DNA from: an uncultured Acidimicrobiales bacterium
GTDB lineage: Bacteria > Actinomycetota > Acidimicrobiia > Acidimicrobiales > SZUA-35
DNA: 64,000 nt
Direction: 5' to 3'
Assembly: GCA_938002965.1 (NCBI GenBank)
Contig: CALKZY010000016.1
Location: forward strand, 124,001-188,000
Position 1 is the stretch's first letter. Every line of letters begins with the position of its first letter. This document shows positions 2,568-29,972 of the stretch, piece after piece. Below the pieces are notes generated by a model. That model worked only from the letters and a program-made list of their open reading frames with translations. It was not told where the DNA came from and made no database searches. The translations under genes were made by a program, and so were the position numbers.

Positions 2568-2569
2568 AT

Positions 2570-2686: not shown

Positions 2687-2718
2687 TTGACCTTCTAGCC
2701 AACTGGAAGGTCTACAAT
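2687..2718 (+). promoter_or_regulatory. MerR/CueR-type promoter and operator of the copper ATPase gene
   Basis: The -35 element TTGACC (2687-2692) and the -10 element TACAAT (2713-2718) are separated by 20 bp, longer than the usual 17. This is the hallmark of promoters activated by MerR-family metal sensors, which twist the over-long spacer. The spacer is filled by a dyad at 2690-2711: left half ACCTTCTAG, centre CCAA, right half CTGGAAGGT, with one mismatch between halves. ACCTTC...GGAAGGT is the classic CueR-type half-site pair. Transcription would begin about 7 bases after the -10, at the ATG of the ATPase gene (2725). The regulator gene is not in the window. Confidence 0.85.
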
Positions 2719-2724
2719 GGAGCC

Positions 2725-4917: not shown

Positions 4918-4929
4918 GCCGGGTTGCCC

Positions 4930-5811
4930 CTAGCGAACGGGCGGAAGCCAGTCAGCGATGGCTTTGCCGATCTGGTCGGGAGAGTCTTCTTGAATGAAAT
5001 GGCTGCCGGGCACAGTCACTTCGGTCAGGTTCGGCCAACTTCGACAGAACTCCCGCTGAGGGCCGATAAGGATGGCGCCGGGATCGGCGTTGACGAATAA
5101 CTTCGGCACCTCCGAGGTGGCTAGCCAGTCGGCGTAGTCGGCGACTATCGCAGTCACGTCGGCCGGTTCGCCTTCGATTGGTATCTCTCGCGGCCAGGTC
5201 AGGGTTGGGCGTCGGTGCTCTGCCTTAGTAAAGGGACGCCGGTACTCATCATGTTCCGGCTGCGTGAGGTCACGAAGAATCGAGCCGGGCAGGACTGCTT
5301 CGACAAACAGGTTCTTTTCAATGACCATTGATTCTCCATTGTCGGAGCGGAAACCTTGGAAAACGCCCCGAGCTGCGTCGGGCCACTCGTCCCAGGTGAC
5401 GGGCCGCACGATGGCCTCCATAAAGGCGATGCCTGCCACGCGATCGGGGTTGCGTCGGGCCCAGTCGAATCCAAGAGCTGACCCCCAGTCGTGGATGACG
5501 AACACGACGTCGTCCCCGAGTTCGAGTTGGTCGAAGAGCCCGTCCAAGTAGTGGCGGTGATCAACGAATCGATATGACCCTGGACCGGTGTCGTCCAGCT
5601 TGTCCGAATCACCATGCCCAATCAGGTCAGGAGCGATGCAGCGTGCGTGGCTTGAGATGGCAGGAATGATGTTGCGCCAAAGATATGACGACGTCGGATT
5701 TCCATGGAGGAAGATGACGCTACGTCCCTCGCCCGACTCGTGGTACGCCATCTGCCTTCCCTCGACAGTGAGGTGGGATTTCGGCAGGGGTTGAGGGTCA
5801 AACGAGTTCAT
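4930..5811 (-). CDS. dhaA: Haloalkane dehalogenase (HLD-II type)
   Basis: A 293-residue alpha/beta hydrolase matching haloalkane dehalogenases in length and motifs. The nucleophile is D108 in HDWGSALG, directly followed by the halide-stabilizing W109. The second halide-binding residue is N38 in HGNPTSSYLW. The acid is E132 in FMEAIVRP, the position used by subfamily II (DhaA/LinB), and the base is H271 in GSHFIQEDSPD. These enzymes hydrolyse carbon-halogen bonds in alkyl halides to alcohol plus halide without cofactors. A luciferase-like homologue can share this fold, but the full pentad of HLD-II residues favours a dehalogenase. The gene converges with the copper ATPase gene 12 bases away; no transporter or alcohol dehydrogenase is next to it, so the physiological substrate is open. 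Confidence 0.93.
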   Translation of the reverse strand: MNSFDPQPLPKSHLTVEGRQMAYHESGEGRSVIFLHGNPTSSYLWRNIIPAISSHARCIAPDLIGHGDSDKLDDTGPGSYRFVDHRHYLDGLFDQLELGDDVVFVIHDWGSALGFDWARRNPDRVAGIAFMEAIVRPVTWDEWPDAARGVFQGFRSDNGESMVIEKNLFVEAVLPGSILRDLTQPEHDEYRRPFTKAEHRRPTLTWPREIPIEGEPADVTAIVADYADWLATSEVPKLFVNADPGAILIGPQREFCRSWPNLTEVTVPGSHFIQEDSPDQIGKAIADWLPPVR

Positions 5812-5895
5812 ATCGATGCGCTCCTTGAGACGTTCTTTACGACCAGCACATTAGTGGCCAGAGCTAGATAGAGCGGGGCCGAACGTCGGATTTCG

Positions 5896-7347
5896 GTGAA
5901 CGTCAAGACTCCCGTTAGCGTGGCCGAGGTGACGCCTGAGGAGTTTCGAACCGCCGGACACGACCTGATCGACTGGATCGCCGATCGTCGACTTAGCGTC
6001 GAACAACGCCCGGTTCGCCCCGACGTTGAACCGGGCGACATAGCGGCGGGTCTGCCCAGTCATCCTCCTGACGCCAAGGTGCAGGCCGATGCGGTATTAC
6101 GAGACCTCGAACAACTGGTGGCGCCGGGGATCACCGAGGTCCAGCATCCGATGCACTTCGGGTGGTTCCCGTCGAACGCCAGCCTCTCGTCGATTCTGGG
6201 GGACATGGCGTCGAGTGGACTGTCGTCTCTAGGTATTTCGTGGGAGTCGTCTCCGGCACTCACCGAAGTTGAAGAGGTGGTGGTCGAGTGGTTGCGTTCG
6301 CTGACCGGGCTCAGCGCGGATTGGTCTGGAGTCATCCAAGACACGGCATCGACGGCGTGCCTGGTGGCGTTGATCGCAGCCCGTGAACGTGCAACCGAAC
6401 ATTCCCAGGCTGGGGACGGATTGCGTGGGTTTGGACTGCCCCTGCACGTGTACACCACCGACGAAGCCCATTCGTCGGTTCGGAAAGCGGCGTTGCTGGC
6501 TGGCTTCGCTGCGAACGATATTCGCGTAGTCGGCGTTGACCCCAGTTCAAGGGAGATGTTGCCGGATCGACTAGCCGCCCAGATCGCCGACGATCTCGAT
6601 GCCGGGGGAGTACCGACGGCTCTTGTCGCCTCGCTGGGCTCGACCGGGGTTACCGCCTTTGATCCGCTACCCGCCATAGCGGAGATCGTGAAGCCTCATG
6701 GAGTTTGGATTCATGTCGACGCGGCCATGGCAGGCTCCGCCATGCTGTTGCCCGAGTTCCGTCATCTGTTCGATGGAGTGGAGAGCGCCGACTCGCTCTC
6801 GTGGAACCCGCACAAGTGGATGGGCACCATCTTGGATACGTCGCTGCTATATCTGAAGGATCCGGAGCATCTCATCCGTGTGATGTCCACCAACCCGAGC
6901 TATCTACGCTCAACCTCGGGGGGAGAGGCCACTCAATACCGTGATTGGGGCATTCCCTTGGGTCGACGGTTCAGGGCACTCAAGCTGTGGTACCAGCTTC
7001 GTATCGACGGCCCGGAGCAAATCCGAACGCGGCTCCGTCGAGACCTGGCTAATGCCGCCTGGTTTGCCCAACAGATCGAACAACGACCCGGATGGGATGT
7101 GGTGGCCCCTGTTCGACTGCAGACAGTTTGTACCCGTCACACCCCACCAGGAATCGACGGCGACGACGAAGCCATTAGTCAACACAACCTGGACTGGGTA
7201 CGTCGCCTGAATCGATCGGGTGAGGCCTTTTTGTCCCCCTCCATGCTCGACGGCAAGTGGATCGCCAGGGTTTCAGTCGGGGTCGAGGCAACTGAACGGG
7301 TCCATTTGGAACGACTGCTCGTATTGATGGACCGGTACGCCGGCTAG
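5896..7347 (+). CDS. PLP-dependent group II amino acid decarboxylase
   Basis: A 483-residue protein of the aromatic-L-amino-acid/glutamate decarboxylase family. The PLP lysine is K307 in SWNPHKWMG, and the upstream HVDAAMAGSA segment supplies the aspartate that holds the pyridine nitrogen. The stretch HPMHFGWFPSNASLSSILGDM near the N-terminus (split over residues about 82-102) is typical of tyrosine/tryptophan/DOPA decarboxylases. It would remove CO2 from an amino acid to give an amine; aromatic substrates are likeliest by family, but specificity is not proven. The start is a GTG; no strong ribosome site precedes it. The neighbours do not form an obvious pathway. The next gene begins 36 bases downstream in the same direction. 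Confidence 0.88.
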   Translation: MNVKTPVSVAEVTPEEFRTAGHDLIDWIADRRLSVEQRPVRPDVEPGDIAAGLPSHPPDAKVQADAVLRDLEQLVAPGITEVQHPMHFGWFPSNASLSSILGDMASSGLSSLGISWESSPALTEVEEVVVEWLRSLTGLSADWSGVIQDTASTACLVALIAARERATEHSQAGDGLRGFGLPLHVYTTDEAHSSVRKAALLAGFAANDIRVVGVDPSSREMLPDRLAAQIADDLDAGGVPTALVASLGSTGVTAFDPLPAIAEIVKPHGVWIHVDAAMAGSAMLLPEFRHLFDGVESADSLSWNPHKWMGTILDTSLLYLKDPEHLIRVMSTNPSYLRSTSGGEATQYRDWGIPLGRRFRALKLWYQLRIDGPEQIRTRLRRDLANAAWFAQQIEQRPGWDVVAPVRLQTVCTRHTPPGIDGDDEAISQHNLDWVRRLNRSGEAFLSPSMLDGKWIARVSVGVEATERVHLERLLVLMDRYAG

Positions 7348-14056: not shown

Positions 14057-15382
14057 TTACTGCTGAAACGGATAGAGCGACCCAAGTTGGAGAATCTGCG
14101 TCAGCTCGTCAAGGGCGGCGCCCGACTCCTCCGCTAGTGATGGATCGCCGAGATCGTCGGCGGTCAAGACGTCGCGGTAGTGGTGGTCAACCCAACGTTC
14201 CAGCTCATCTAGCAGGCTCACGGTTGCTAGGACTCGTCCTGTCAACGCGTCTCGCTGCGGCCCGGCCATTGCTACTCGGAGTCGAAGACATGCGGGCCCA
14301 CCGCCGTTGCGCATGCTCTGGCGCAAGTTCATCGTGTGAACCTCCGCTATCGGGTGATTCGGATCCGCTGCGATCTCCTCTAAGCAGCGTCGGGTTGAAT
14401 CTTCGTCATTGACGTTGTCGGGAGTGATGAGCACCATCTTGCCCTGAGGCAGGCTGACGAGTTGTGAGTTGAACAGATAGGTCCTGATAGCGGCGTCCAA
14501 TGGGACACGTTCACGGCCAACCTGCACTGCGTGTATGCCGGGGGCGTCGGGCGGCATCTCGCTCAGTAGCGAATCCAGTGGCCGCTCGAAAGCATCCTCG
14601 TGGTAGAAGACGACGGTCTTGTTGACTACGGCAACAACGTCGTTGTGGAAGGCTCCGGCATCGATGGCCTTGGCCGACTGTCGGGCGAAGACGACACGGC
14701 TCGGGTCGAGCCCGTGGCTATCAGCGATGAGTTTGCCCGCCAGCTTGGTCTGACGACGGGGGAACGGCCCACCTAAGTCTTCTCCGTCTTCTCGCCCGTA
14801 GACGAACAGATGGATGGCCGGTTGCCCGTGGTCACCGACCACTCGATTGTGGTTGGCAGCCCCTTCGTCGGAGAACCGGCTGTGGCGTGGAAGAGGTTCG
14901 TGCACCATGAAGTGATGGCGGTCGCTGAAGATGGTGCGCAAGATCGCAGTGGTCTGTGGCGGTTCGACACAGCGGTGGGCGATGGTCAACAGGTTGGCCG
15001 GTGTGATGTGGAGGCGTCCGTCACCGGTGTCCGCTGACGGCGAGACGGTGGCGGCGTTAGCCGTCCACATGGCTGAGGCCGACATAGCAATAGAGCGGAG
15101 GTCGCCCGGCACCTGGTCGATAGTGGCCGAGGCAGGTAGGCCTAGCTCAGCCAGCAATTGCGGGTCTGGGCGTTGGTGAGGCGGCAGGATCCCCTGGGGT
15201 ACACCTAGGCTCAACATCAGCCGCATCTTGGCCAGCCCCTGCCGGGCCGCGGCCCTGGGGTTGGACGTGGCGTTGGCGTTGCTGAGCGAAGCCTTGTTGC
15301 CGACCGAAAGACCGGCGTAGTTATGTGTCGGGCCGACCAGACCGTCGAAATTGACCTCCTGCCAGTTCAAGTCCGCTGTCAT
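14057..15382 (-). CDS. astB: N-succinylarginine dihydrolase
   Basis: A 441-residue guanidino-modifying enzyme that hydrolyses N2-succinylarginine to succinylornithine, CO2 and two ammonia. The N-terminus WQEVNFDGLVGPTHNYAGLS is the AstB signature, with NKASLSNANATSNPRAAA after it. The nucleophilic cysteine is in NGGGPACLRLRVAM near the C-terminus and the catalytic histidine is in AFHNDVVAVVN. The length matches AstB. Its ATG overlaps the stop of astA by 4 bases (ATGA), so the two are translationally coupled. The genes for the following steps (AstC aminotransferase, AstD dehydrogenase, and the M14-type AstE) are not adjacent in the usual order; see the M20 gene upstream. Confidence 0.95.
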   Translation of the reverse strand: MTADLNWQEVNFDGLVGPTHNYAGLSVGNKASLSNANATSNPRAAARQGLAKMRLMLSLGVPQGILPPHQRPDPQLLAELGLPASATIDQVPGDLRSIAMSASAMWTANAATVSPSADTGDGRLHITPANLLTIAHRCVEPPQTTAILRTIFSDRHHFMVHEPLPRHSRFSDEGAANHNRVVGDHGQPAIHLFVYGREDGEDLGGPFPRRQTKLAGKLIADSHGLDPSRVVFARQSAKAIDAGAFHNDVVAVVNKTVVFYHEDAFERPLDSLLSEMPPDAPGIHAVQVGRERVPLDAAIRTYLFNSQLVSLPQGKMVLITPDNVNDEDSTRRCLEEIAADPNHPIAEVHTMNLRQSMRNGGGPACLRLRVAMAGPQRDALTGRVLATVSLLDELERWVDHHYRDVLTADDLGDPSLAEESGAALDELTQILQLGSLYPFQQ

Positions 15383-16440
15383 TGGTCTCGACCTGGGTCG
15401 TCTGTTAGACCGCTCAAGTCAGCGGCCCGTCGGAGTGGCGCGGCGGCGATGAGTCGAGATTCATCGACACCTAGCCGATAGGCAGTGGCCTCTGAGATCA
15501 CGACAGATCCATCATCTCCTGCGGCGGCAGACCCTCTCGTCAGACGGAACGAACCCACCGACACTGTGCCGATTAGCGACTCCGGTCCGTCGAGATCGGC
15601 CACGATTTGTGCCCTACCGTGTACGCGAAGTTTGTGGGTCACCGTCTCGTCTAGTTGGGCTCGAACAGTCGGACCCCCATCAACCGGGTCAAAAAGCTCG
15701 GTTGGTTCAAGTCCTTCGCTGACGAGCGCACGGAAGGCCGGGAGTGAGGCGCCATTGACCTTGCCCAGGCAGTCCAACACCTCTGGCAAAAGTCGCAGTG
15801 ACTGATCGGCTAGCCGACGCAACTGTCTGGGATCACGGCCCAGTGCCTGCTCGGCCATGGCAGAGGTTCCCCAGTCAGGAACGAACCGGTGACCGAAATG
15901 CATCCAGAACGGCGCACTACCTGCGTCGTCGAACGTTCCCCGCAAATGGGAGACGACACTGGCTGGAATCTGCGATGCCACCAGATGGAGCAGCATGAGT
16001 CTGCCGCGTGAGAGTACTGCGCCATGCCCGGCGCCGCGAGCATCAGGGCGAAGGTAGCTGGAGTCGAGTTCGCTGCGCGTCCACGGTTGTGACGCGCTGT
16101 GCATTGCCAAGCCGAGTCCGTCCAGGCTTGTTTGCACCCGAACGCCGAGATTGGGAATGTCGTGCTTGAACGAACAACCGGTGAGACCAACAATCCCGTC
16201 GCCCGGATGGTCGGCCACGAGCACTAGACGGTCTGCTGTGCCTGGGTCGGGACGGTACGACCCTGCGGCCAACTCCGCCAGTACTGCGGCGCTGCTGTCG
16301 CATAGCTGTTTAGTGGCGTCCATGCTGGACGGCAACGAACCCATACCGTCAGTGTCGGTGGCGTCATCCAGGACTTTCCAGATATCGGCTGCATCCTCGA
16401 CTACGACCGGGCGGAGAACAATTGGACTTGCTTTGATCAT
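15379..16440 (-). CDS. astA: Arginine N-succinyltransferase
   Basis: A 353-residue acyltransferase that transfers succinyl from succinyl-CoA to arginine, the committed step of the AST pathway. Family landmarks visible include VLVADHPGDGIVGLTGCSF, SSYLRPDARGAGHGAVLSRGRL and FWMHFGHRFV (residues about 170-180). It ends with a 4-base overlap into astB. The start ATG (MIKASPIVLRP) is 30 bases downstream of the M20 peptidase gene on the same strand, so they are probably co-transcribed. The AST pathway is best known from gammaproteobacteria, so a linked astA-astB pair in an actinobacterial setting is noteworthy. Confidence 0.93.
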   Translation of the reverse strand: MIKASPIVLRPVVVEDAADIWKVLDDATDTDGMGSLPSSMDATKQLCDSSAAVLAELAAGSYRPDPGTADRLVLVADHPGDGIVGLTGCSFKHDIPNLGVRVQTSLDGLGLAMHSASQPWTRSELDSSYLRPDARGAGHGAVLSRGRLMLLHLVASQIPASVVSHLRGTFDDAGSAPFWMHFGHRFVPDWGTSAMAEQALGRDPRQLRRLADQSLRLLPEVLDCLGKVNGASLPAFRALVSEGLEPTELFDPVDGGPTVRAQLDETVTHKLRVHGRAQIVADLDGPESLIGTVSVGSFRLTRGSAAAGDDGSVVISEATAYRLGVDESRLIAAAPLRRAADLSGLTDDPGRDQ

Positions 16441-16470
16441 GTCACCGACTCACCGTTGAGTATGTGTTTG

Positions 16471-17688
16471 CTAGCCTGCGTCCTGACGCTGGTAAGCCTG
16501 CTGTATCAGATAGCTCATTATGGCTGACCTGGAGGGAATGGAAGCCACATCGGCGAATTCGTTCTCGCTGTGAATTCCACCGCCGCGAATACCCATGCTG
16601 TCGAGGTTGATCAAGCCTGCAGCTGCGAGATCATTACCATCGCAACTGCCGCCGGTATCTTCTCCCACGATGGGGTCTCCCACCATGTCACCGGCAGCCT
16701 CGGCGTCGCCCAGCATCACTTCAAGGGTGTCGGAGCGTTCTTTGGGCGGCCGTGCGGCGATCCAGTCGATGTCGATCGAAACCTCCGTCCGGTCCCTGAC
16801 CTGAGCGGCCAGCGTGGCCACGCGATCCTGGATCCACTGATGATCGTCGTTGGTGAGCACGCGAACGTTGAAGCTGGCGACGGCAAAGTCTGGGACGACA
16901 TTAAGCGGCCCGCCGCCACGAATCGCTCCACAGTTAACGGTAAGGCCGGGCCTTGAGTTGCAGTCCTCAAGCTGATCCAAGAATTGGGCGGCGGCACGGA
17001 TCGCCGATCGTCCTTCGTTGTGGGCCCGGCCGACGTGGGCCGGTAGACCCCGACATATGGCATGAACGGTCAGTGACCCCTTTCGTGCCGCGGCGATGCC
17101 GCCTCCTGGAAGAGCGGGCTCGATTCCAAGCCCGAGCTGGCACCGAGAACCGATGGTTGCCAACAGGGCCTTCGAGCCATGTGATCCAACTTCTTCGTCG
17201 GGGACAGCGATGAACTCCCACCCGACGCGACTACCCCAGTCGGTCCGCTCGAGATGGCGGAGTGCCTCGAGAGCGATGATTAATCCACCCTTGCAGTCGG
17301 CAACGCCTGGACCTCTGAGCACGTCGCCTTGCCGGCTGACCTGCTGAAACGGGTGATCGGAAGGAAAGACAGTGTCGAGATGACCGAAGACGCAAATCCT
17401 GAATGCCGCATCGCCACGTTTTGCCACCCGCAAAGCACGGCCCATCGAGGTCTCTTTGCGGTGGCCGTTCTCATCCAGCGTGATTGTTGGCCCCACGGCA
17501 AGCGTTTCCACCACGTCGGGATCGAGGGATTGAGCGAGGTCAGCGAGACGTTCTCCGCAGCGGTCGACGCCGTCGACATTGAACGAACCCGAGTTGATCT
17601 CGGCTAAGGCAATGACGTTTTCAGCCATCTGGTCGATCTGCCGAATTAGACGATCGTTCAGGGTTGCTAGCTCATTGACAGCACTCAT
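16471..17688 (-). CDS. M20-family zinc aminoacyl/desuccinylase-type peptidase
   Basis: A 405-residue M20 metallohydrolase resembling glutamate carboxypeptidase (CPG2), ArgE and DapE. Metal ligands and catalytic residues are visible: FGHLDTVFP (His ligand and nearby Asp), GPGVADCKGG (bridging Asp), PDEEVGSHG (catalytic Glu and ligand), and GIHSENEF (C-terminal His ligand); a lid-domain substrate His is in GLPAHVGRAHNEGRSA. M20 enzymes remove acyl groups from amino acids. Placed just ahead of astA-astB, it may remove succinate from succinylglutamate, the job done elsewhere by the unrelated M14 enzyme AstE. The ATG at 17688 overlaps the preceding gene's TGA by one base; upstream in-frame starts are inside that gene. 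Confidence 0.88.
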   Translation of the reverse strand: MSAVNELATLNDRLIRQIDQMAENVIALAEINSGSFNVDGVDRCGERLADLAQSLDPDVVETLAVGPTITLDENGHRKETSMGRALRVAKRGDAAFRICVFGHLDTVFPSDHPFQQVSRQGDVLRGPGVADCKGGLIIALEALRHLERTDWGSRVGWEFIAVPDEEVGSHGSKALLATIGSRCQLGLGIEPALPGGGIAAARKGSLTVHAICRGLPAHVGRAHNEGRSAIRAAAQFLDQLEDCNSRPGLTVNCGAIRGGGPLNVVPDFAVASFNVRVLTNDDHQWIQDRVATLAAQVRDRTEVSIDIDWIAARPPKERSDTLEVMLGDAEAAGDMVGDPIVGEDTGGSCDGNDLAAAGLINLDSMGIRGGGIHSENEFADVASIPSRSAIMSYLIQQAYQRQDAG

Positions 17689-18437
17689 CAGCGACTGTCC
17701 GCTTGCTGATCGGAGCGATCTGAGAATCGAGACTGCCACTGGTTGGCGTCCATGCCCAGCTCGTCGAGCCGCTTAGTAATCCACAGCGGAGGTTCCATCT
17801 CTTCTCCGTTCTTCAACGATTCGATGACAGCCCCGTTTTCGTCCCAAACGTGGCAGGTATTGAGGTTGAAGGCGAACCGCTCCCTGATTTGCTCGTTGGT
17901 AGGTTTCGTCGGAAGTGGAGGGGGCACGGGGGTCAACCCTTCGTCGCTGGCCGCCGCCATCATCGACCACACCGTTTGTATGGCCACGGGAGCCATAGCT
18001 TGAAGCAGGGCGGTGGTGTGGGTGCATCCTCGGGGTCCACCGAACAGTTCCCTAATCTTGTGGGTAAAGCCTCGGGCGATAGATAGGCCGATCAGGCTCC
18101 CGTAGTGATCGGTGATGGTCGGGCAACCGGTGTGCGGGTGGACTTCCATCACTACTTCGGCCGAGGTGATCTCCATCGACGGAACGACGACCACGATGTC
18201 GACAATCATGTGGTGGACTGTCATCGGGTTCGGATCAACGGGGACGTACAGGCCAGCGGGCTTTTGGTCCAGAACCTGTCCTCGGATCATCATCTCAGTG
18301 GCGCTGAGCCGGTAGGCGCGCACCGAATACGTCCGGTCGTGCAAGAGAGGTAGATCCGGCTCGGGCGCCGGGCTTGCGATGACGGGAGCAATACTGGTCG
18401 ACGGAACATGTCCATCGGTCATGGCAGGTTCAGACAT
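17688..18437 (-). CDS. DUF2889-like protein
   Basis: A 249-residue protein resembling DUF2889: a segment on basic biochemical context (YSVRAYRLSATEMMIRGQVLDQKP), a middle with HHMIVDIVVVVPSMEITSAEVVMEVHPHTGCP (split here for length, residues about 74-105), and the GPRGCTHTTALLQAMAPVAIQ motif with conserved Cys and His. Function is unknown; the conserved Cys/His residues suggest metal or cofactor binding. It has no signal peptide or membrane helix. It is the first gene of a likely operon with the M20 peptidase (1-base stop/start overlap), astA and astB, so it could be an accessory of arginine degradation. Confidence 0.75.
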   Translation of the reverse strand: MSEPAMTDGHVPSTSIAPVIASPAPEPDLPLLHDRTYSVRAYRLSATEMMIRGQVLDQKPAGLYVPVDPNPMTVHHMIVDIVVVVPSMEITSAEVVMEVHPHTGCPTITDHYGSLIGLSIARGFTHKIRELFGGPRGCTHTTALLQAMAPVAIQTVWSMMAAASDEGLTPVPPPLPTKPTNEQIRERFAFNLNTCHVWDENGAVIESLKNGEEMEPPLWITKRLDELGMDANQWQSRFSDRSDQQADSR

Positions 18438-18493: not shown

Positions 18494-20452
18494 TCAACTG
18501 GGCGGCGGCGAGACGTCAGTAGCCGACCAAGCCACCCAGCCTCCGTTCGGACCGAGCCTGAGTGGAAACTGAGCTAGCATGTCTGCTGACACCTGTTCAT
18601 GCACATACTGTTTCTCGGGTAGTTCGGCGTCAGCCAGAACATCAAATCGAAGGCTGGGGTCGATGCCCAGGCTTCGGAGGTCTAAATTCTCTTCCACTGG
18701 TGCCGCTTGGCCGTTGATGGCGGCGATGAACCACGCCGATCTGCACCGCCGAGCCATGACGACGTGACTTCCAGGTAGTCCAGCCAGAAGATGCGACTCG
18801 TCCCACACCGCCGGCACGTTCTTGAGGTACTGGCGTACTGGGTCTGGCTGGGCTAGATAGTGATGTGGTGTATCGCAGAAATGGAGGAGTCCGCTCTCGA
18901 ACACGACCGCCAGCGCCAGCTCGTGAGTATTGGTGGTAATTCGTCGCTTAGCCAGGTCGGATAACACCACCGGGGTGTAATCCATCGAGCCGATAACGTT
19001 CCTGGTCAAGGCCAAGATGGTGTTGTTGAGCGGGGCCTGCGGGCCGTAGTCCTCAGATAGCCGGTACCACTCCGCACCGCGGACGGCCTCGGTGGTCATG
19101 AGGTTGGGGTATGTTCGCGACCAGCCGCGTGGTGCGGTACAGCCATGGAAGTTCACCATGAGGCCGACGTCGGCAGCATCTTGGAGAATGCCGTGAAACT
19201 GCGCTATCCCATCGGGCTTGTCAGTGTGGAAGAAGTCCACCTTGATACCTTTGACGCCCCACCTGGCGATCCGAGTCAACTCGGCGCGCCGAATGTCGGG
19301 ATCGGTCATCCGATCTCGGGGCTCTTCGGTCATCTGATTGTTTGACCCACCCGAGTTGTACCACAGCATGACGCCGACGTCACGCTTGGCTCCGTAGCGC
19401 ACCAACTGTTCAACGGAGCCCTCAGGGAGGAGATTCCAGTTGGCGTCGACGAGAATGAACTCCCATCCAAGTTCAGAGGACACATCGATCGCAGACCGCA
19501 GGGCGGCCGGGTCTCGGGGGCTGTCATGATCACCCCACCACGTCCAAGCCACCCTTCCCGGCCTCACCCACGAATAGTCGCTCTCAGGGTCAGCCGCCGG
19601 TGACAGATGTCGGACGAGGTTTGACTCGGCAACGGCAGCCAAATCGCCGACAATCTGGATCCGCCACGGCATGGACATCGGCAGTGACGCTTTGACGGTG
19701 GCGGCGTGGGCCGGATCGCCCTCATCGGAGTGCGGTCGCCGGAGTTCAAATGTGCGACCGTCTTGCGCCACGTTGATGTGACTGCCGCCGTTGGACGAGT
19801 CGACACCGGCCTCAGCCAGCAAGAGCCACTGGTCCTGCGTCTTGAACAACGCAGGCATTGTCCAGCCTGCATCCGAGGCGACCAATTCATGAACAGCAGT
19901 TCCATCGGTGTGCCAGCCTTCGTAGCCCGGAGTTACAAGGCCGACACGATCGTGGGCTTGAAGCCAGCCGAGCGAGCCGTGTGGCAGGCAAATTCGCGAG
20001 AGCTCGTCCAACACCTCGACGGCAGGCGTTGGATGATTGGCATCGATTGCCTCCAGTCTGAGTCGGTGGGCCACCCCACCATCGGCCACGACAATCTCCA
20101 AGAGGAGGCGAGTGGCGGCATTGTGGTTGATCGCGTAAACAACATGATTAGCTCGCAACCTGGACGTGCGGGCTTTACCCACTGGCAACGTGAACGAATC
20201 ATCGAGTTCGACACGGCTTTGCTCGACTACTGGTCGATCGGGCTCGATGGTGAGCGCCCCCGAGTCCGTTCGCAGCCCGATGCCGACGGTGCGGGCAAGT
20301 TCGGCGCCCTGAGACAACGTGCAGATGGCGAGGCCCTGAACGGCATCGCTCACCAGCTTCGCCGTCGTCACCAGACCAGGCGAAGAGATAGCGGCAATGA
20401 CACCGTCGGTGGCGGTGAAATCGCCGGCAGAGAAAATGCCGTCCACTGTCAT
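18494..20452 (-). CDS. Glycoside hydrolase family 97 (alpha-galactosidase-like)
   Basis: A 652-residue protein with the GH97 architecture: an N-terminal beta-sandwich, a central (beta/alpha)8 barrel and a C-terminal beta domain. Barrel landmarks are RVAWTWWGDHDSPRD, GWEFILVDANW, VMLWYNSGGSNN and VKGIKVDFFHTD, followed by MVNFHGCTAPRGWSRTYPN and TTEAVRGAEWYR. The aspartate in KVDFF lies where retaining GH97 enzymes have their nucleophile, which favours alpha-galactosidase-type over the inverting glucosidase (SusB) type; this is an inference. No signal peptide is visible, unlike many family members, so it may act on imported sugars. It is on the same strand as arsJ and the DUF2889 operon, with 73- and 56-base gaps. 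Confidence 0.85.
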   Translation of the reverse strand: MTVDGIFSAGDFTATDGVIAAISSPGLVTTAKLVSDAVQGLAICTLSQGAELARTVGIGLRTDSGALTIEPDRPVVEQSRVELDDSFTLPVGKARTSRLRANHVVYAINHNAATRLLLEIVVADGGVAHRLRLEAIDANHPTPAVEVLDELSRICLPHGSLGWLQAHDRVGLVTPGYEGWHTDGTAVHELVASDAGWTMPALFKTQDQWLLLAEAGVDSSNGGSHINVAQDGRTFELRRPHSDEGDPAHAATVKASLPMSMPWRIQIVGDLAAVAESNLVRHLSPAADPESDYSWVRPGRVAWTWWGDHDSPRDPAALRSAIDVSSELGWEFILVDANWNLLPEGSVEQLVRYGAKRDVGVMLWYNSGGSNNQMTEEPRDRMTDPDIRRAELTRIARWGVKGIKVDFFHTDKPDGIAQFHGILQDAADVGLMVNFHGCTAPRGWSRTYPNLMTTEAVRGAEWYRLSEDYGPQAPLNNTILALTRNVIGSMDYTPVVLSDLAKRRITTNTHELALAVVFESGLLHFCDTPHHYLAQPDPVRQYLKNVPAVWDESHLLAGLPGSHVVMARRCRSAWFIAAINGQAAPVEENLDLRSLGIDPSLRFDVLADAELPEKQYVHEQVSADMLAQFPLRLGPNGGWVAWSATDVSPPPS

Positions 20453-20525: not shown

Positions 20526-21746
20526 TCACTGATGGATGCTCACTGGCAGATTGAGTGGCGGCAATCGGCGAGCGAGTAACCAGGAACACACGGTGAACGC
20601 TGCTGATCCGGCCAGCGCCAATGGCAAGCCCCCCAGGACAAAGAGAAGGCCCGACAGTCCGGTTCCCACCAGCCGACCAAGAGCATTGGCCGAATAGTAG
20701 TAGCCGACGTCGAGAGCAACGTCCGATCCTTGGCTGTAGGCCAGAATCAAATAGGAATGCAGCGAAGAGTTGAAGGCGAACACGATGCCGAATGCGAGAA
20801 GGCCAATGATGACGACGATGTTCAGAGCCAACCCGCCGGCCACAACCAGCGCCAAGCCCAGAGTCAGAACCGACAAAGTCAATGCCCAGGCCCGGGTAGC
20901 AGCGACATGTCCTTGGTCGCTCGCCTTGGAGCGGCCAAAGTTGAGCAGCCGGGGGGCAGCTGATTGGACTAATCCGTAGCCAATAACCCAGGCGGCAAGA
21001 AATCCTCCGATTTGGTTGAACGACCACCCAAGCCGCTGATCAAAGAACACTGGGAGGGCGACGACAAACCAGATGTCTCGCGCCCCGAAAAGGAACATAC
21101 GTGCCGCCGAAAGTCTGTTGATCGACTCAGACTTGGAAAGGACGGCCCTCAACGGGCTGGCCTCAGCCGCTCGCCCCAACGTGTCATCGAGCAGCAGAAG
21201 CAGCGCTACCAAAGCCGTGAAGACGACCAGGGACAGAACGTACAGAGCACCGCTATATCCAAGCCAACTCAACAAGGCGGCCCCGACGAAGAAACCGACT
21301 CCTTTGAGGGCGTTCTTCGATCCAGTCAGCAAGGCCACCAGACGAAACAGCGAACCTTCGCCCGCCACCAGTTTCACTGCGCTCTTCGAGCTCATTTTCG
21401 TCAGGTCCTTGGCCACTCCTGACAAGGCTTGAAGGGCCATGACGAACACCACTGAGGTGGCCGTAGTCCACGAGCTATCGCGAAACGACAGGGCCACTAG
21501 GGCGAAGGTCTGGAGTCCGAGGCCGGCTATGAGCGTTCGATTCAGCCCGTTCTTAGCACCGACCCATCCGCCCACCAGGTTGGTCACAACGCCAACAAGC
21601 TCGTAGGGCAGAAATAGCGCCGCCAACATGAGCGGGGAGAACCCAAGTTGGTGAAAGTGGAGTAACACCAGCATCCGCAATGCCCCGTCGGTGACGGTGA
21701 AGGCCCAATAGGCCGCGGTCACAAGCCCATAGGTCTTGGTCTTCAC
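20526..21746 (-). CDS. arsJ: Organoarsenical efflux MFS transporter
   Basis: A 406-residue major-facilitator protein whose N-terminal half matches ArsJ: DGALRMLVLLHFHQLGFSP, LPYELVGVVTNLVGGWVGA and NGLNRTLIAGLGLQTFAL. ArsJ exports 1-arseno-3-phosphoglycerate, which breaks down outside the cell to arsenate. The gene follows a GAPDH gene, the standard ArsJ partner. The start is GTG at 21746, overlapping the GAPDH stop in a GTGA arrangement, so translation is coupled; a start at 21782 would lie within the GAPDH gene. About 12 hydrophobic segments are visible. No arsR, arsC or acr3 gene is nearby. Confidence 0.92.
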   Translation of the reverse strand: MKTKTYGLVTAAYWAFTVTDGALRMLVLLHFHQLGFSPLMLAALFLPYELVGVVTNLVGGWVGAKNGLNRTLIAGLGLQTFALVALSFRDSSWTTATSVVFVMALQALSGVAKDLTKMSSKSAVKLVAGEGSLFRLVALLTGSKNALKGVGFFVGAALLSWLGYSGALYVLSLVVFTALVALLLLLDDTLGRAAEASPLRAVLSKSESINRLSAARMFLFGARDIWFVVALPVFFDQRLGWSFNQIGGFLAAWVIGYGLVQSAAPRLLNFGRSKASDQGHVAATRAWALTLSVLTLGLALVVAGGLALNIVVIIGLLAFGIVFAFNSSLHSYLILAYSQGSDVALDVGYYYSANALGRLVGTGLSGLLFVLGGLPLALAGSAAFTVCSWLLARRLPPLNLPVSIHQ

Positions 21747-22825
21747 AGTGACGAGCGATGAGAGGATTCGCCAGACGAACACTTGGGAGGGGATGATTCG
21801 ACGGCTAGCGATTCGGCCACGGTTACGGCAAGGTCAACCATGCGGTGGGCGTAGCCGACTTCGTTGTCGTACCAGGCCAGGACTTTGACCATGTGACCGT
21901 CGACTACCATGGTCGATGGCCCGTCGACGATGGCTGACCGCGTGTCATTAACGAAGTCGGCCGATACCAGCGGTCGCTCTTCATACCCCAAAATCCCAGC
22001 CAGCGAGCCAGCAGCCGCCGTTTTGAAGAGCTGATTTACCTCCTCTCGGTCGACAGGGCGATCCATCGTGAAGACCGCGTCGACTAGCGACGCATTCAAC
22101 AACGGGACCCGTACCGCCACACCGTTCAGCTTGCCAACTAGTTCGGGGAAGATCATCCCAATCGCAGTGGCCGAGCCGGTTGAGGTAGGTATTAATGAAT
22201 TGAGCGCCGATCGAGCACGGCGTAGATCAGCGTGAGCGGTGTCGACGACCACTTGGGTGTTGGTCACATCGTGAATGGTGGTTACCACGCCGCGTTCAAT
22301 ACCGATCGACTCCTGAAGAACCTTCACTACAGGCGCTAGGCAGTTGGTCGTGCACGAAGCGGCTGTCACGACGTTATGCACCTCGTCGCGATAGAGATGG
22401 TCGTTGCAGCCCATAACGACGTTCAGCGCACGGCGATCGTTGACGGGAGCGGAAACGACGACTTTTCGGGCGCCGCGGTCGAGATGCGGGGTCAGACTTT
22501 CGAGCGTGCGGAACCGTCCAGAGCATTCCAGAACGACATCAACCCCTGATGCGCCCCAGACGACATCACCGGGCATGTCGTGGGTGGTGTAGACAATCGG
22601 TTCGTGGCCCGCCAGTTCTTCGATGAAGAGCGCCGACTCGTCGGCGCTGATGGTGGCATCGAAGCGACCGTGAACCGAGTCGAACTCAAGGAGGTGCGCC
22701 GAAGTTGAACTGCTAGCCATCGGCTCGTTGACATGAGCCAGCTGTAGAGATGGGACGCCCAGCATTGCCCGGGCGGCCAGCCGACCGATTCGACCGAAAC
22801 CGTTAATGCCGACTTTGACCGTCAT
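21743..22825 (-). CDS. ArsJ-associated glyceraldehyde-3-phosphate dehydrogenase
   Basis: A 360-residue GAPDH. The NAD-binding motif GINGFGRIGRLAARA is at residues 6-20; the catalytic cysteine is C158 in ASCTTNCLAPV and the paired histidine follows in the TTIHDVTNTQVV segment. NEPMAS replaces the usual glycolytic NDL after the second beta strand, a feature in line with the arsenate-linked branch. It would use arsenate in place of phosphate to make 1-arseno-3-phosphoglycerate for ArsJ to export. The C-terminal extension (about 25 residues, Ser-rich) runs into the arsJ start. The ATG at 22825 has GGAGG about 11 bases upstream; 17 extra residues from an earlier start are rejected. Confidence 0.92.
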   Translation of the reverse strand: MTVKVGINGFGRIGRLAARAMLGVPSLQLAHVNEPMASSSTSAHLLEFDSVHGRFDATISADESALFIEELAGHEPIVYTTHDMPGDVVWGASGVDVVLECSGRFRTLESLTPHLDRGARKVVVSAPVNDRRALNVVMGCNDHLYRDEVHNVVTAASCTTNCLAPVVKVLQESIGIERGVVTTIHDVTNTQVVVDTAHADLRRARSALNSLIPTSTGSATAIGMIFPELVGKLNGVAVRVPLLNASLVDAVFTMDRPVDREEVNQLFKTAAAGSLAGILGYEERPLVSADFVNDTRSAIVDGPSTMVVDGHMVKVLAWYDNEVGYAHRMVDLAVTVAESLAVESSPPKCSSGESSHRSSL

Positions 22826-22949
22826 GGCGACTGCAACCTCCGTGGGTGACTTGTGGGCGCGTTCGCCTTGGAACAAAGGCTATTGGCCGGAGTAGGACCT
22901 GCCCAATACTTCAGGAGCCGGTCACCTCCCGAGGGGTCCGGCATGATGC

Positions 22950-22978: not shown

Positions 22979-23012
22979 CTGTCAGCTTCACTAAGGAAAG
23001 GTGGTCGTTTGT

Positions 23013-24254
23013 ATGGGTAGCGAGCAGGGAATCCTCCAGGTCCAAGACGGTAATGGGCGAGATCGGTTGTTGACGTGGCACAACGGCGAGCGAGCATACA
23101 GTCCCTTTAGCCACAGCGAGATGGATCGGCGTCAAGACGGCCTACGCAACCTGATGGCAGACATGAGCCTCGACGCCTGCCTGCTGACCAGCTACCACAA
23201 CATCTGCTATTACACGGGCTTCTTGTATTGCTCGTTCGGGCGCAACTACGGCTGCGTGATTACTCCCGAGAGCACGACCACTATCAGCGCCGGAATCGAC
23301 GGAGGCCAACCGTGGCGAATGACCCACGGCGAGAATGTGGTCTACACCGATTGGCGTCGAGACAACTTCCTGTTCGCCGTTCAGCAACTAGCGCCGGGTG
23401 TCAAACGATTGGGTATCGAGTTCGATCACGTGACCCTTGATCTGCGTGAGCGACTCGGCGACGCCTTTCCAGGAGTTGAGTTCGTAGATGTCGGACAGCC
23501 GACGATGTGGATGCGGACCATCAAGTCAGATGAAGAGATTGCACACATCAAGACCCTGACGGCAATCGCCGACCTGGGTGGTGAAGCATGCGCCCAGGCG
23601 ATTGCCCCCGGGGTGCCTGAGCATGAGGTGGCGTTGGCGTCGACCGGAGCCATGATTCGACGGATCGCCGAGAGCTTTCCCTTCGTTGAGCTGATGGACA
23701 CATGGACCTGGTTCCAGTCCGGCATCAACACCGATGGAGCCCACAATCCGGTGACCAACAGGCAGATGGGGCCGGGCGATATTTTGAGCCTGAACTGTTT
23801 CCCCATGGTGTTCGGCTACTACGTCGCCTTGGAGCGAACGCTGTTTTGCCAGACCGCCTCGGACGACCATCTTCGGCTTTGGGACGTCAACGTCAAGGTC
23901 CATGAGCGTGGCCTGGAGTTGATCAAACCGGGTGCAAGGTGCGGAGACATCGCCACTGAGCTGAACGAAATGTATGCCGCCCACGATCTACTTCAGTACA
24001 GATCGTTCGGATACGGGCATTCGTTCGGCGTGCTATGCCATTACTACGGTCGGGAGGCTGGCGTCGAGCTCCGCGAAGACATCGATACCGAACTCAGACC
24101 TGGCATGGTGGTTTCGATGGAGCCGATGATCATGGTCCCCGAAGGAAGTCCGGGGGCCGGTGGCTATCGCGAGCACGACATCCTGGTTGTGACCGAAACC
24201 GGATCCGAGAACATCACCGGTTTTCCCTACGGCGCTGATCACAACATCATCTAG
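23013..24254 (+). CDS. Creatinase (creatine amidinohydrolase)
   Basis: A 413-residue protein of the creatinase branch of the M24 'pita-bread' fold, hydrolysing creatine to sarcosine and urea. It matches the pseudomonad enzymes closely by recollection: FVELMDTWTWFQSGINTDG with the following AHNPVT (catalytic His), IEFDHVTLDLRERL, SFGYGHSFGVLCHYYGREAG, ELRPGMVVSMEPM and GGYREHDILVV. The metal ligands of M24 aminopeptidases are partly replaced, as expected for creatinase. ATG 23013 follows an AAAGGTGG ribosome site. It is divergent from the arsenate genes, with a peptide-type ABC importer downstream. No sarcosine oxidase, urease or creatininase lies in the window. Confidence 0.93.
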   Translation: MGSEQGILQVQDGNGRDRLLTWHNGERAYSPFSHSEMDRRQDGLRNLMADMSLDACLLTSYHNICYYTGFLYCSFGRNYGCVITPESTTTISAGIDGGQPWRMTHGENVVYTDWRRDNFLFAVQQLAPGVKRLGIEFDHVTLDLRERLGDAFPGVEFVDVGQPTMWMRTIKSDEEIAHIKTLTAIADLGGEACAQAIAPGVPEHEVALASTGAMIRRIAESFPFVELMDTWTWFQSGINTDGAHNPVTNRQMGPGDILSLNCFPMVFGYYVALERTLFCQTASDDHLRLWDVNVKVHERGLELIKPGARCGDIATELNEMYAAHDLLQYRSFGYGHSFGVLCHYYGREAGVELREDIDTELRPGMVVSMEPMIMVPEGSPGAGGYREHDILVVTETGSENITGFPYGADHNII

Positions 24255-24757: not shown

Positions 24758-24831
24758 ATGGCTAGATCCAGAGGTTGACTGCCCGCTACGATGGCCGCAG
24801 CCCAGAAGACGAGTCGAATAGGGGAGAGCGG

Positions 24832-25833
24832 TTGAGCGGGACCGAAGCGGTGCTCGAGGTTTCCAACCTGGCCACGGAGTTCCATACACCCGATGGCGTC
24901 GTTCATGCCGTGAACGGTATTGATTTCGAGCTTCGCCAAGGAGAGTTCCTCGGCGTTGTGGGCGAAAGCGGCTCGGGCAAGAGCGTGACGATGATGTCAT
25001 TGCTGCGTCTGATTCCTATGCCTCCGGGAAAGATCGTCAGTGGCTCGGCCATGTTCGACGGCGACGATCTGCTTGAGATGGAGACGTCTGATCTTCGAAA
25101 GGTGCGAGGCGGCAAGATCGGTTTCATCTTCCAGGACCCGATGACGTCGCTCAACCCTGTGTTGACGGTCGGCAAACAGATCGGTGAATCGCTCAAACTG
25201 CACACCGATGCCACCACTCGGGACGCCAAGCGGCGATCACTTGAGTTGCTTGAACTTGTTGGTATTCCTGACGCCGAGCAGCGGCTGAAGTCGTACCCCC
25301 ACGAACTATCAGGCGGTATGCGCCAGAGAGTCATGATCGCCATTGCGTTGGCCTGCTCTCCGAAGGTCATCATTGCTGATGAGCCGACGACCGCTCTGGA
25401 TGTCACGATTCAGGCCCAAATCATCGAGATCGTTCGAGATCTGCGAACCAAGCTTGGAACGGCTGTCATCTGGATCACCCACGATCTCGGCGTCGTTGCA
25501 GGCCTGGCTGATCGGGTCATCGTGATGTACGGCGGTCGGATCGTCGAAGAGGCACGAGTTGCCGACCTCTACGCCCAGCCGCAGCATCCGTACACCCGCG
25601 GACTTCTGAGATCCATCCCTCGGCTCGATCAAAAAGGCAGCGATCTACAGACAATCGAGGGGCAGCCTCCAAGCTTAAGAAGCGCACCTGTCGGGTGCTC
25701 ATTTGCTCCCAGGTGTGAGTTCGCGTTTGATCGGTGCCTCACGGACACACCACAGTTGGAATCGGTTGGCTTCGAACACCGGACCGCCTGCTGGTGGGAC
25801 CTTGACAACGAAAGGCCCCGAGATGAGCTCTGA
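24832..25833 (+). CDS. Peptide/nickel-type ABC importer ATPase, DppD/OppD-like
   Basis: A 333-residue ATPase with Walker [10 protein letters not shown]-loop [12 protein letters not shown], signature LSGGM, Walker [13 protein letters not shown] and the H-loop in WITHDLGVV. The C-terminal oligopeptide_ABC extension with [14 protein letters not shown] has the cysteine pattern typical of DppD/OppD. The TTG at 24832 is preferred since GGGGAG is five bases upstream; a TTG at 24775 would have a ribosome site touching the codon. It overlaps the next ATPase gene by 11 bases. It energizes the importer together with the following gene. Confidence 0.93.
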
Positions 25834-26926
25834 AAAAGCAGCCGACCCGTCAGCCGATGCACTTGACACCAAATCAAAGGAGATTGCGGCCAACTCTGAT
25901 GACGTTGTCCAGGCCACCGTTGAGACGTTGGAGCAGGGCGACCGCGAAGTCCTGGTCTCGGTACGAAGCCTGAAGAAACACTTCCCGATCATGAAGGGCG
26001 TCTTTCGCCGGCAGGTCGGGGCGGTACGAGCCGTCGATGGGATCTCGTTTGATATCTACAGGGGTGAGACCCTGGGTTTGGTGGGCGAGAGCGGATCAGG
26101 TAAGTCCACCACAGGCAAGGTGATCCTTCAGCTGGAGCAAGCCACAGAAGGCACTGCAACCTTTGATGGAATCGAGCTAACCGAAACCAAAGGGGAGGAG
26201 CTCCGGAAACTCCGGCCCCGAATGCAGATGATCTTCCAAGATCCGCACTCGTCGTTGAACCCTCGCATGACGGTGGCGTCGATCATCGCCGAGCCCCTCA
26301 GAGAACATGGGCAAGGCAATGCTGAGAGCCAACGTAAGCGGATCGACGAGCTGCTGAGCCAAGTCGGCCTTTCGCCAATGCACGCCAACCGTTATCCGCA
26401 CGAGTTCTCCGGTGGCCAACGTCAACGCATTGGTATCGCCCGTGCCATCGCCCTGAACCCCGATTTTGTTGTCTGCGACGAGCCGATTGCAGCGCTTGAT
26501 GTCTCTATCCAGGCTCAGGTCGTAAACCTGCTTGAGGAACTGCAGAACGAACTCGGCTTGACGTACCTCTTCATCTCGCACGACCTTTCTATGGTCCGCC
26601 ACATCGCTGATCGCGTCGCCGTTATGTATTTGGGCCGCATTGTCGAACTGGCCAGTGTTGACGCTCTCTACGATGATCCGCAGCACCCGTATACGCAGGC
26701 GCTGAACTCTGCTGTTCCGGTACCGGATCCCGTTGTCGAAGCAAGCAGGCGTCGGCAAATCCTCGAGGGCGATATTCCCAGCCCTTCTAATCCGCCCCCG
26801 GGCTGCGTGTTCAACACCCGCTGCCCGCTGGCAGAAGATCGATGTCGCACAGAGGTGCCTGAATGGCGCGATATCGGCGGCGGCCACTATGTGGCCTGCC
26901 ATCTGGTTGATGACAAGTCGACCTGA
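25823..26926 (+). CDS. Peptide/nickel-type ABC importer ATPase, DppF/OppF-like
   Basis: A 367-residue second ATPase. Walker A is [12 protein letters not shown], the Q-loop [12 protein letters not shown], signature [14 protein letters not shown], Walker [13 protein letters not shown] and the H-loop FISHDLSMV. The C-terminal extension carries [14 protein letters not shown]. Its first 40 residues are an acidic, Ser/Ala-rich tail that most family members lack. The start ATG ([10 protein letters not shown]) lies within the end of the previous gene (11-base overlap). It forms a heterodimer with it. Confidence 0.93.
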
Positions 26927-27016
26927 TTGTCGCTCAGCCACCCAGAAGTCCCCGAGTAACCCGTAACATACCCGATACGCCGAAAGCCAATCCTTGGCAA
27001 GGGAGGAATGAACAAA

Positions 27017-28831
27017 ATGAAGAGACTGAGATTGCTAGCACTCTTGCTGGCCGTCTTCGCTTTAGTTGCCGCATCCTGTGGTGGTTCAAGTGACGACGAC
27101 GCAGCAAATGACGAAGCCACTGAAACCGAAGCGAGCGGTGAAGACGCCGACGCTGAGGAAGAAGAGGCAATGGAAGACGACGAGGAAGAAGAGGAAGCCC
27201 CGGCTGAAGAAGAAGCCGGAAGCGACGAACTTCTCCTCCTGCAGTGGCAGGCGCCTTCGCAGGCCAACGTGCTGCTCTCCGGTGGCACCAAGGACGCCTT
27301 GGCTGCGTCACTGGCAATTGAGCCGCTGGCGAAATTTGATCCCACTGGAACGCTGATTCCAGTACTCGCTGCTGAGATCCCGACAGTGGACAATGGTGGC
27401 GTGGCCGAGGACTTCTCGTCCATCACCTGGACTCTTCGTGACGACATTGTTTGGTCGGACGGCACACCGTTCACCTCCGACGATGTTCTCTTCACCCACG
27501 AGTACTGCTCGGACGAGGCCACTGGCTGCTCGGTCGATCTCACCACCATTGATAAGGTCGAGGCTGCTGACGCCACGTCCATCACCGTGACGTTCACCGA
27601 GCCGCAGCCGTTCCCCTACAGCTACTTCGTCGGCTACCTGCACCCAATCATCCAGCGGGCCCAGTTCGCTGATTGCGTTGGTGCAGCTGCTGCTGGTTGT
27701 TCGGACCAGAACTTCACTCCGGTAGGCACCGGTCCGTACGTTGTCACTGAGCTCAAGCCTGAGGACACTGCTACCTACGCCGCCAATGAGAACTACCGAC
27801 TGGCTGGCGAAGGCAAGCCCTTCTTCCAGGCCGTAACCATTAAGGGTGGCGGCGACGCTGAGGCTGCTGCTCGTTCAGTGCTGGAAATTGGCGAAGCCGA
27901 CTACGGCTGGAACCTGCAGGTAGCACCTGAGATTCTCGCTCCGATGGAAGCTGCAGGCAATGCCGCATTGGTGTCCGGTTTCGCCGGCAACGTTGAGCAC
28001 ATCAACTTGAACCAGACCGACCCCCGGGCAGCAACACCGTCCGAGGGCGTGGATCACCCGATTCTGTTCAACAACCCTGAACTAGCTCGGGCCCTGTCTC
28101 TGGCCATCGATCGTGATGCCCTAGTAGCCGTCGGTTACGGCGCTGCTGGTGCTGCGACCTGCACCATCTGGCCGGTACCCGGTCAGCAGTCAGCCAACAA
28201 CGACTGGTGCAAGACCCGCAACGTCGATGAGGCCAACACCATCCTCGATGACCTGGGTTACGAGGACACCGACGGTGACGGTGTACGTGAGGCCGACGGG
28301 GAGCCGCTGAGCTTCACCTATGCCACCTCCACCAACGCCGTGCGTCAGTCGAACCAGGACATTGTCAAGGCCAACTGGGCCGAGATCGGTGTTGAGGTCG
28401 AGATGCTCAACGAGGACGCTTCGCTGTTCTTCGACGGCACCTGCGCTTCCGATGCTTGCATCTGGAAGTTCTTCAATGACATGGAGATGTTCACCAACGG
28501 CTCCACTGTGCCCGACGCGGTTTCCTACCTAAACGGTTGGACCCAGGAGCAGATCCCGACTTCCGCCACCAGCTGGGGCGGATCGAACATGCCTCGCATG
28601 CAGTCCGATGAGTACGACGCCCTCTGGCTCGAGACATCTGGCCTAGCTTCTACCGACCCGGCCTACGCCGGCAACGTTGAGAAGCTCCAGGACCTTATGA
28701 TCGAGTCCGGCGCTGTCATTCCGCTGATCCACCGGGCCAGCGTTTCGGCTATTGCCAGCGACATTCAAGGCTTCGGCGAGCTCAATGGCTGGGACTCGGA
28801 GTACTGGAACATTCAGGACTGGACCCGCTAA
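27017..28831 (+). CDS. Peptide-type substrate-binding lipoprotein (SBP family 5)
   Basis: A 604-residue extracytoplasmic binding protein. The N-terminus is a lipoprotein signal, MKRLRLLALLLAVFALVAASC, read as residues 1-20 plus the lipidated C21. A very acidic, Glu/Asp/Ala-rich linker of about 50 residues follows, then an SBP_bac_5 domain with SITWTLRDDIVWSDGTPFT and GTGPYVVTELKPEDTATY. A GGGDAEAAARSVLEIGEADY segment and the C-terminal region agree. The ATG at 27017 sits 10 bases after GGGAGG; the ATG at 27008 is too close to it. The ligand is unknown; peptides, opines or other small nitrogenous compounds fit the family. Confidence 0.92.
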   Translation: MKRLRLLALLLAVFALVAASCGGSSDDDAANDEATETEASGEDADAEEEEAMEDDEEEEEAPAEEEAGSDELLLLQWQAPSQANVLLSGGTKDALAASLAIEPLAKFDPTGTLIPVLAAEIPTVDNGGVAEDFSSITWTLRDDIVWSDGTPFTSDDVLFTHEYCSDEATGCSVDLTTIDKVEAADATSITVTFTEPQPFPYSYFVGYLHPIIQRAQFADCVGAAAAGCSDQNFTPVGTGPYVVTELKPEDTATYAANENYRLAGEGKPFFQAVTIKGGGDAEAAARSVLEIGEADYGWNLQVAPEILAPMEAAGNAALVSGFAGNVEHINLNQTDPRAATPSEGVDHPILFNNPELARALSLAIDRDALVAVGYGAAGAATCTIWPVPGQQSANNDWCKTRNVDEANTILDDLGYEDTDGDGVREADGEPLSFTYATSTNAVRQSNQDIVKANWAEIGVEVEMLNEDASLFFDGTCASDACIWKFFNDMEMFTNGSTVPDAVSYLNGWTQEQIPTSATSWGGSNMPRMQSDEYDALWLETSGLASTDPAYAGNVEKLQDLMIESGAVIPLIHRASVSAIASDIQGFGELNGWDSEYWNIQDWTR

Positions 28832-28866
28832 AGCGGATCGTCTCGTCAGTAGTTAGCAAGTAGCTG

Positions 28867-28898
28867 GTGGGGCCTCCCTTTGAACGGGGAGGCCCCAC
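28867..28898 (+). terminator. Strong hairpin between binding protein and permease genes
   Basis: Arm 28867-28878 (GTGGGGCCTCCC) pairs perfectly over 12 bp with 28887-28898, around an 8-nt loop. It starts 36 bases after the binding-protein stop, and is followed by a short T-containing tail (GCTATAGCTTT). It probably reduces read-through into the permease genes, leaving more mRNA for the binding protein, as in many ABC operons. Confidence 0.7.
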
Positions 28899-28936
28899 TG
28901 CTATAGCTTTGGTGGAAGGGATCTTCGAGAACCGAC

Positions 28937-29956: not shown

Positions 29957-29972
29957 GGGAGGTTTACAGGAG

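Follow-up and report, generated by a model that had tools for sequence, protein, structure and literature searches.

The genes of the classical arginine succinyltransferase (AST) pathway are ordered astCADBE in Escherichia coli and aruCFGDBE in Pseudomonas. Its last step is carried out by AstE, a desuccinylase of the M14 family. Carboxypeptidase G2 belongs to the unrelated M20 hydrolases and frees glutamate from N-acyl groups. DapE and ArgE share the M20 fold and its metal chemistry and act in another pathway, in which DapE, too, removes a succinyl group. Here, a window of 64,000 nucleotides from an uncultured Acidimicrobiales bacterium (assembly GCA_938002965.1, contig CALKZY010000016.1, positions 124,001 to 188,000) is analysed. 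It contains, in a row and all on the minus strand, the genes of a DUF2889 protein, an M20 hydrolase, AstA and AstB. The M20 protein is very probably a non-homologous N-succinylglutamate desuccinylase that stands in for M14 AstE, since its gene lies among astC, astA, astD and astB in many genomes, it excludes AstE and it is akin to carboxypeptidase G2. M20 shares ast clusters with AstC-like, AstA, AstD and AstB genes, and no AstE was detected in those M20-bearing genomes that were tested.

The gene of the DUF2889 protein (249 residues, 17688..18437; PF11136 with 89.9 bits) overlaps that of the M20 metallohydrolase (16471..17688) by 1 base. Counted from the ATG, the M20 protein has 405 residues; a GTG at 17739 is likewise open, and the score of 384.5 bits for NF005602 (cut-off 357) was obtained with the GTG form. 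A gap of 30 bases separates M20 from astA (15379..16440), which encodes a divergent arginine N-succinyltransferase of 353 residues (PF04958 with 100 bits). The astA gene in turn overlaps astB (14057..15382) by 4 bases. The latter encodes an N-succinylarginine dihydrolase of 441 residues, with 575.9 bits for PF04996 and 567.4 bits for NF009789 (cut-off 452). Gene order, strand and junctions are thus confirmed at exact coordinates as an earlier, sequence-only reading of the window had described them. The same reading had noted the absence of AstC, AstD and AstE. None of the three genes is present within the operon, but for the genome as a whole the statement does not hold, as astD exceeds the cut-off of TIGR03240 twice.

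The window's M20 protein is a member of NF005602 (PRK07338), a curated family named just "hydrolase" and without a stated function; one is proposed for it here. Its nearest named protein relatives are labelled Acidimicrobiales. The structure model has a mean pLDDT of 95.5, and the nearest solved structures are those of carboxypeptidase G2 (1cg2 and 6xj5), with E-values of 2.6e-20 by sequence and 3.1e-31 by model. Among the solved structures that match less well, DapE first appears at rank 10 and E. coli ArgE at rank 31. The residues H103, D131, E166, E190 and H373, the five metal positions, and E165, the catalytic glutamate, align to carboxypeptidase G2 and are invariant in 87 aligned M20 proteins. 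Of the 93 loci that entered this alignment, six (L020, L034, L050, L094, L097 and L202) were dropped, as they had no M20 frame over the score and length limits. R202, R221, N263, R276, R313 and K316 are invariant as well. The basic residues among them (R202, R221, R276, R313 and K316) would match a substrate that carries three carboxylates, and the predicted substrate is N-succinylglutamate. Carboxypeptidase G2 thus resembles the M20 protein in fold and in the metal and catalytic positions, and it acts on N-acyl glutamates. It differs in sequence, with 22% identity over the fold alignment, and for the glutamate carboxypeptidase model NF004788 the window's protein reaches 159.1 bits, short of the required 349. 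The distance to the DapE and ArgE models is large, with 92.8 versus 217.6 bits for DapE-ArgE and 55.9 versus 297.7 bits for the ArgE model TIGR01892.

Genomes of the same order (397 in total) were searched with the M20 protein at an E-value of 1e-40 or better. It is present in six of them, the window's own and five others, and all five have AstB, which is cut by a contig end in G620. The two that belong to the window's genus (G463 and G620) have the order M20-astA-astB, with AstD over the cut-off on another contig. In two members of another genus of the same family (G516 and G549), the genes form a single block M20-astA-astD-astB. The AstD of G549 is half a bit short of the cut-off (578.8 versus 579.3 bits), and in this genome a class-III transaminase gene overlaps M20. 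This transaminase scores 554.4 bits with NF003468 (cut-off 522) and 544.7 bits with TIGR03246 (cut-off 609.95). In the remaining family member, G482, M20 adjoins AstB; no AstA was found on its 9.9 kb contig. M20 (at 1e-40), AstB and AstD (over the cut-off) are absent together in G499, a genome of the window's genus. It is likely that the ast operon once included AstD and that the window's genus moved astD out.

Of 296 sampled class genomes, five have AstB, and NF005602 exceeds its cut-off in six, namely the same five and G294 (Fisher p = 3.3e-10, uncorrected). All four AstB-positive genomes of one family (f42) have the order M20-astA-astD-astB, and a divergently transcribed AstC-like gene lies beside M20. 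G294 has M20 and AstA with an AstC-like gene, and its AstD lies elsewhere (716.1 bits); no AstB was found in this genome, which is 84% complete. AstE was over the cut-off in none of the 12 Acidimicrobiia tested.

For more distant bacteria, 378 proteins were confirmed as relatives of an M20 protein from Marinobacterium (P0099), and the best 80 of them were taken as named loci. As they are the best relatives of a Marinobacterium protein, this set is biased to Oceanospirillales, to which most of the loci belong. The loci measure up to about 21 kb and some are ended by contig ends. "AstC-like" denotes a tblastn match of at least 250 bits to the AstC of locus L086 and may include ArgD-type enzymes. 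Among these best 80 loci, an AstC-like gene is present in 65, AstD in 63, AstA in 60 and AstB in 58. Ignoring intervening genes, the commonest order is astC-M20-astA-astA-astD-astB (31 loci, and six more with an additional AstA). Some loci have their AstC-like gene 2 to 5 kb ahead of M20. With AstC-like and AstD genes in the same clusters and no AstE found, what is left to be supplied is an enzyme for the last step. Similar clusters are present in sphingomonads. The genes of a hydrolase, an arginine N-succinyltransferase and an N-succinylarginine dihydrolase are consecutive in Sphingomonas parapaucimobilis, and astA, astB, astA, astD and M20 are grouped on a plasmid of Novosphingobium.

The relation of M20 to AstE was examined in 369 genomes drawn from the Gammaproteobacteria, the class of Neptunomonas marina, to avoid selection by M20; only the centre of this draw, G301, had been reached through its M20. 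AstB is present in 23 of the 369. AstE (TIGR03242) is present in ten of these 23; eight exceed the cut-off, and the other two fall short of it with scores that are still strong (290.7 and 279.0 versus 305.65 bits). NF005602 exceeds its cut-off in twelve. No genome has both and one (G666) has neither. The exclusion has a Fisher p of 9.6e-6, or 3.4e-5 without G301, with no correction for kinship. Furthermore, M14 AstE was not found in any of 39 genomes chosen by M20. PF04952 matched in three of them (L053, L071 and L080). These proteins were considered as AstE candidates and rejected, as all three are aspartoacylases with 290.6-310.6 bits for NF002601 (cut-off 180) and 22.9-37.4 bits for the AstE model. 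In 14 control genomes AstB is present in E. coli and Caulobacter, the latter not counted as an M20 carrier, and PF04952 in E. coli alone.

The window's assembly (4.69 Mb, 57 contigs) is 91.5% complete with a contamination of 6.12% and is probably a metagenome bin. It has astD twice on other contigs, with 611.6 and 609.5 bits versus the TIGR03240 cut-off of 579.3. One copy lies on contig C8 (G000:C8:344-1774) and the other on C55 (G000:C55:3259-4686), each beside a sulfatase-like gene, and the two are 79% identical to each other. With the AstD of G620, the C8 copy shares 98.6% identity, versus 79% for the C55 copy and 72-79% for the window's AstA, AstB and M20 and their counterparts in G620. 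Contig C8 may therefore come from a second species or a contaminant, and the C55 copy fits the window's organism. As both copies are AstD, the conclusion is independent of which of them belongs to this organism. A search of the genome for M14 AstE gave no match to PF04952 and a best score of 43.2 bits for TIGR03242 (cut-off 305.65), reached by a remote protein of the AstE/AspA type on contig C37. The sequence-only reading had held that a classical astC and astD together with an M14 astE elsewhere in the genome would speak against its proposals. Of these astD is present in two copies, and neither a dedicated astC over the cut-off nor astE was found. The best match to the AstC model TIGR03246 is argD (343.5 versus 609.95 bits), which lies in an argCBDFRGH cluster (L211:3277-10680; argB, argF and argR were assigned by inspecting their translations). 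In E. coli, succinylornithine is a further substrate of ArgD-type enzymes.

Judged by family, AstA would transfer a succinyl group to arginine, and AstB would turn the resulting succinylarginine into succinylornithine, two NH3 and CO2. An AstC-type enzyme would then transaminate succinylornithine; in the window's genome, where just ArgD was found, this step is presumed. AstD, encoded on another contig, would oxidise succinylglutamate semialdehyde, and the M20 protein would end the route by cleaving N-succinylglutamate to glutamate and succinate. The pathway would thus share AstA, AstB and AstD with the classical one, AstD lying elsewhere in the window's genome, and in relatives AstD and AstC-like genes lie within the cluster or next to it. 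It differs in that M14 AstE was not found here and M20 is present in the cluster instead. In the window's genus astD probably left the operon, and in the window and one congener DUF2889 would have ended up ahead of the operon. A non-homologous AstE had been one of two possibilities raised by the sequence-only reading, and the position in ast clusters, the exclusion of AstE and the kinship to carboxypeptidase G2 all speak for it. If true, the family named just "hydrolase" would gain a function, and a gap in arginine catabolism would be filled for lineages with AstA, AstB and AstD and without AstE. Many bacteria would then possess a second, independently evolved enzyme for the last step of the AST pathway, which would clearly exemplify how a single step of a textbook route can pass to a non-homologous enzyme. 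Among the best-matching papers of the open PMC library, no title or abstract beginning reports an M20 enzyme replacing AstE; subscription journals and supplements lie outside this range. The words desuccinylase, astE and M20 do not occur in the main text of PMC9007349.

Several observations weigh against a role of M20 as the AstE substitute. G666 has AstB and AstD (748.8 bits) and neither AstE nor M20 over the cut-off; perhaps it has a third solution for the last step. Four of the 23 Gammaproteobacteria with AstB, three of which also have AstE, possess M20 proteins of 307-314 bits, under the NF005602 cut-off of 357. We read these proteins as a sister group. The window's genome has a remote M14 protein of the AstE/AspA type on contig C37 (L168:4539-5720; PF24827 with 57.4 bits), which is far below the AstE models (67.4 versus 170 and 49.4 versus 305.65 bits). 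The failure to find a dedicated AstC in this genome, at 91.5% completeness, counts on the same side. A check for AstD covered 23 chosen genomes. M20 and AstB are present without AstD over the cut-off in L081 and L086, both Desulfobacterales, and in G482, where the best score is 242 bits. L083 has M20 and no AstD over the cut-off, and its AstB is merely a fragment at a contig end. In a corresponding check for AstB, which covered 21 genomes, it was not found in five, including the M20 carriers L042, L043, L099 and G294.

L081, L086 and G482 also speak for a three-enzyme short-cut, the other possibility raised by the sequence-only reading. Here, M20 would split N-succinylornithine into ornithine and succinate, and AstA, AstB and M20 would suffice. 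The window conforms to this in that only these three enzymes are clustered, and the M20 relatives ArgE and DapE act on N-acyl diamino acids. Such a route is nevertheless very unlikely. A pathway that ends at ornithine needs neither AstD nor AstC, but AstD is present in the window's genome and in its congeners G463 and G620, and it lies within the operon in G516 and G549, where in the latter the AstC-type gene overlaps M20. Similarly, AstD or AstC-like genes stand beside M20 in most of the best 80 loci. The short-cut was therefore rejected as the principal explanation and retained as a rival for the few genomes that lack AstD. Among the 58 loci that combine M20 with AstB, just two (L052 and L086) have no AstD in the locus. 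The genome of L052 has AstD elsewhere (752.1 bits), and that of L086 has none over the cut-off (best score 196.5 bits). In both loci a class-III transaminase gene directly precedes M20, and that of L086 exceeds the AstC cut-off (673.4 versus 609.95 bits), so that even this exception has AstC directly upstream of M20.

Two further loci, L042 (2885-8750) and L043 (Kistimonas asteriae, 469-6335), have the order M20-astA-astA-astD, and AstB was not found in either genome. Without AstB, cutting succinylornithine would be futile because it undoes the first step, and cutting succinylglutamate would not. Perhaps these bacteria burn ornithine rather than arginine. In addition, the short-cut gives no prediction that AstE is absent where M20 is present, and ArgE structures rank well below carboxypeptidase G2. 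A mixed situation, in which M20 substitutes for AstE in Acidimicrobiia, in many Gammaproteobacteria, in sphingomonads and in Desulfobacterales and additionally takes succinylornithine in L081, L086 and G482, a true three-enzyme route from arginine to ornithine, is equally improbable.

It is also hardly to be expected that M20 acts on another N-acyl amino acid or a dipeptide and lies beside astA and astB by accident. M20 hydrolases are many and broad, and the name of NF005602 would allow for such a substrate. However, the linkage of M20 to ast genes recurs in Acidimicrobiia, Gammaproteobacteria, sphingomonads and Desulfobacterales. The distances of M20 and AstB correlate with r = 0.907 over 62 loci, a value in which shared species history is not controlled. 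Least probable of all is a biosynthetic acetylornithine deacetylase (ArgE) that neighbours astAB by chance: no argJ is seen in the argCBDFRGH cluster, so that argJ or argE is to be expected elsewhere (a genome-wide search for them was not made), and M20 matches the ArgE and DapE models weakly, but it is far below the cut-off of TIGR01892, it tracks AstB, and its presence in just six of the 296 class genomes is too rare for a biosynthetic housekeeping gene.

Of the two ast genes in the window, astB is clear and astA is divergent. The window's AstB matches the solved AstB structure 1ynf over its full length (E = 1.4e-122); it is under the cut-off of TIGR03241 (513.2 versus 538.3 bits), though over that of NF009789. 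The window's AstA exceeds the gathering score of PF04958 but is below the cut-offs of all four matching NCBIfam models. Its AlphaFold model (mean pLDDT 92.0) is best matched by 1yle, a subunit of the Pseudomonas arginine/ornithine succinyltransferase (E = 2.3e-24, TM-score 0.81 on the target), and the next match has an E-value of 3e-4. The name AstA stands on account of this best match. An unusual AstA was observed in L081 (CP070769, 11293-13476), where the AstA match ends at about residue 254 and the frame continues into PAS and sensor-kinase domains. Genes of a histidine kinase and a response regulator follow, and AstB lies elsewhere on the chromosome. The frame is either an assembly error or a real fusion.

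The sequence-only reading had included DUF2889 in a variant pathway with M20, astA and astB and had proposed to look for their joint occurrence in actinobacteria. For M20 and astB this occurrence is borne out in the order and the class. DUF2889 does not share it: among the ast clusters examined it precedes M20 only in the window and, in the same position, in G620, and it was rejected as an AST enzyme for this reason. With the window's protein as query, tblastn, which may miss divergent members, gave no DUF2889 match in the other fetched ast clusters of Acidimicrobiia or across the 80 named M20 loci. Relatives of DUF2889 occur in 15 plasmid records, and in both of the two that were inspected the gene lies among acyl-CoA genes. 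DUF2889 has been linked to a SCOP superfamily (PMC4520260). In the window it is probably a lineage-specific neighbour, a passenger outside the conserved module.

Upstream of DUF2889 and on the same strand lie genes of a GH97 glycosidase (18494-20452), the arsenic efflux protein ArsJ (arsJ, 20526-21782) and a glyceraldehyde-3-phosphate dehydrogenase, the partner of arsJ (21743-22876). A similar run of gene sizes is present upstream of DUF2889 in G620. Further on, an M24 peptidase gene (23001-24254) precedes the genes of an oligopeptide-type ABC transporter on the plus strand (24775-30917), which comprise two ATPases, a binding protein and two permeases.

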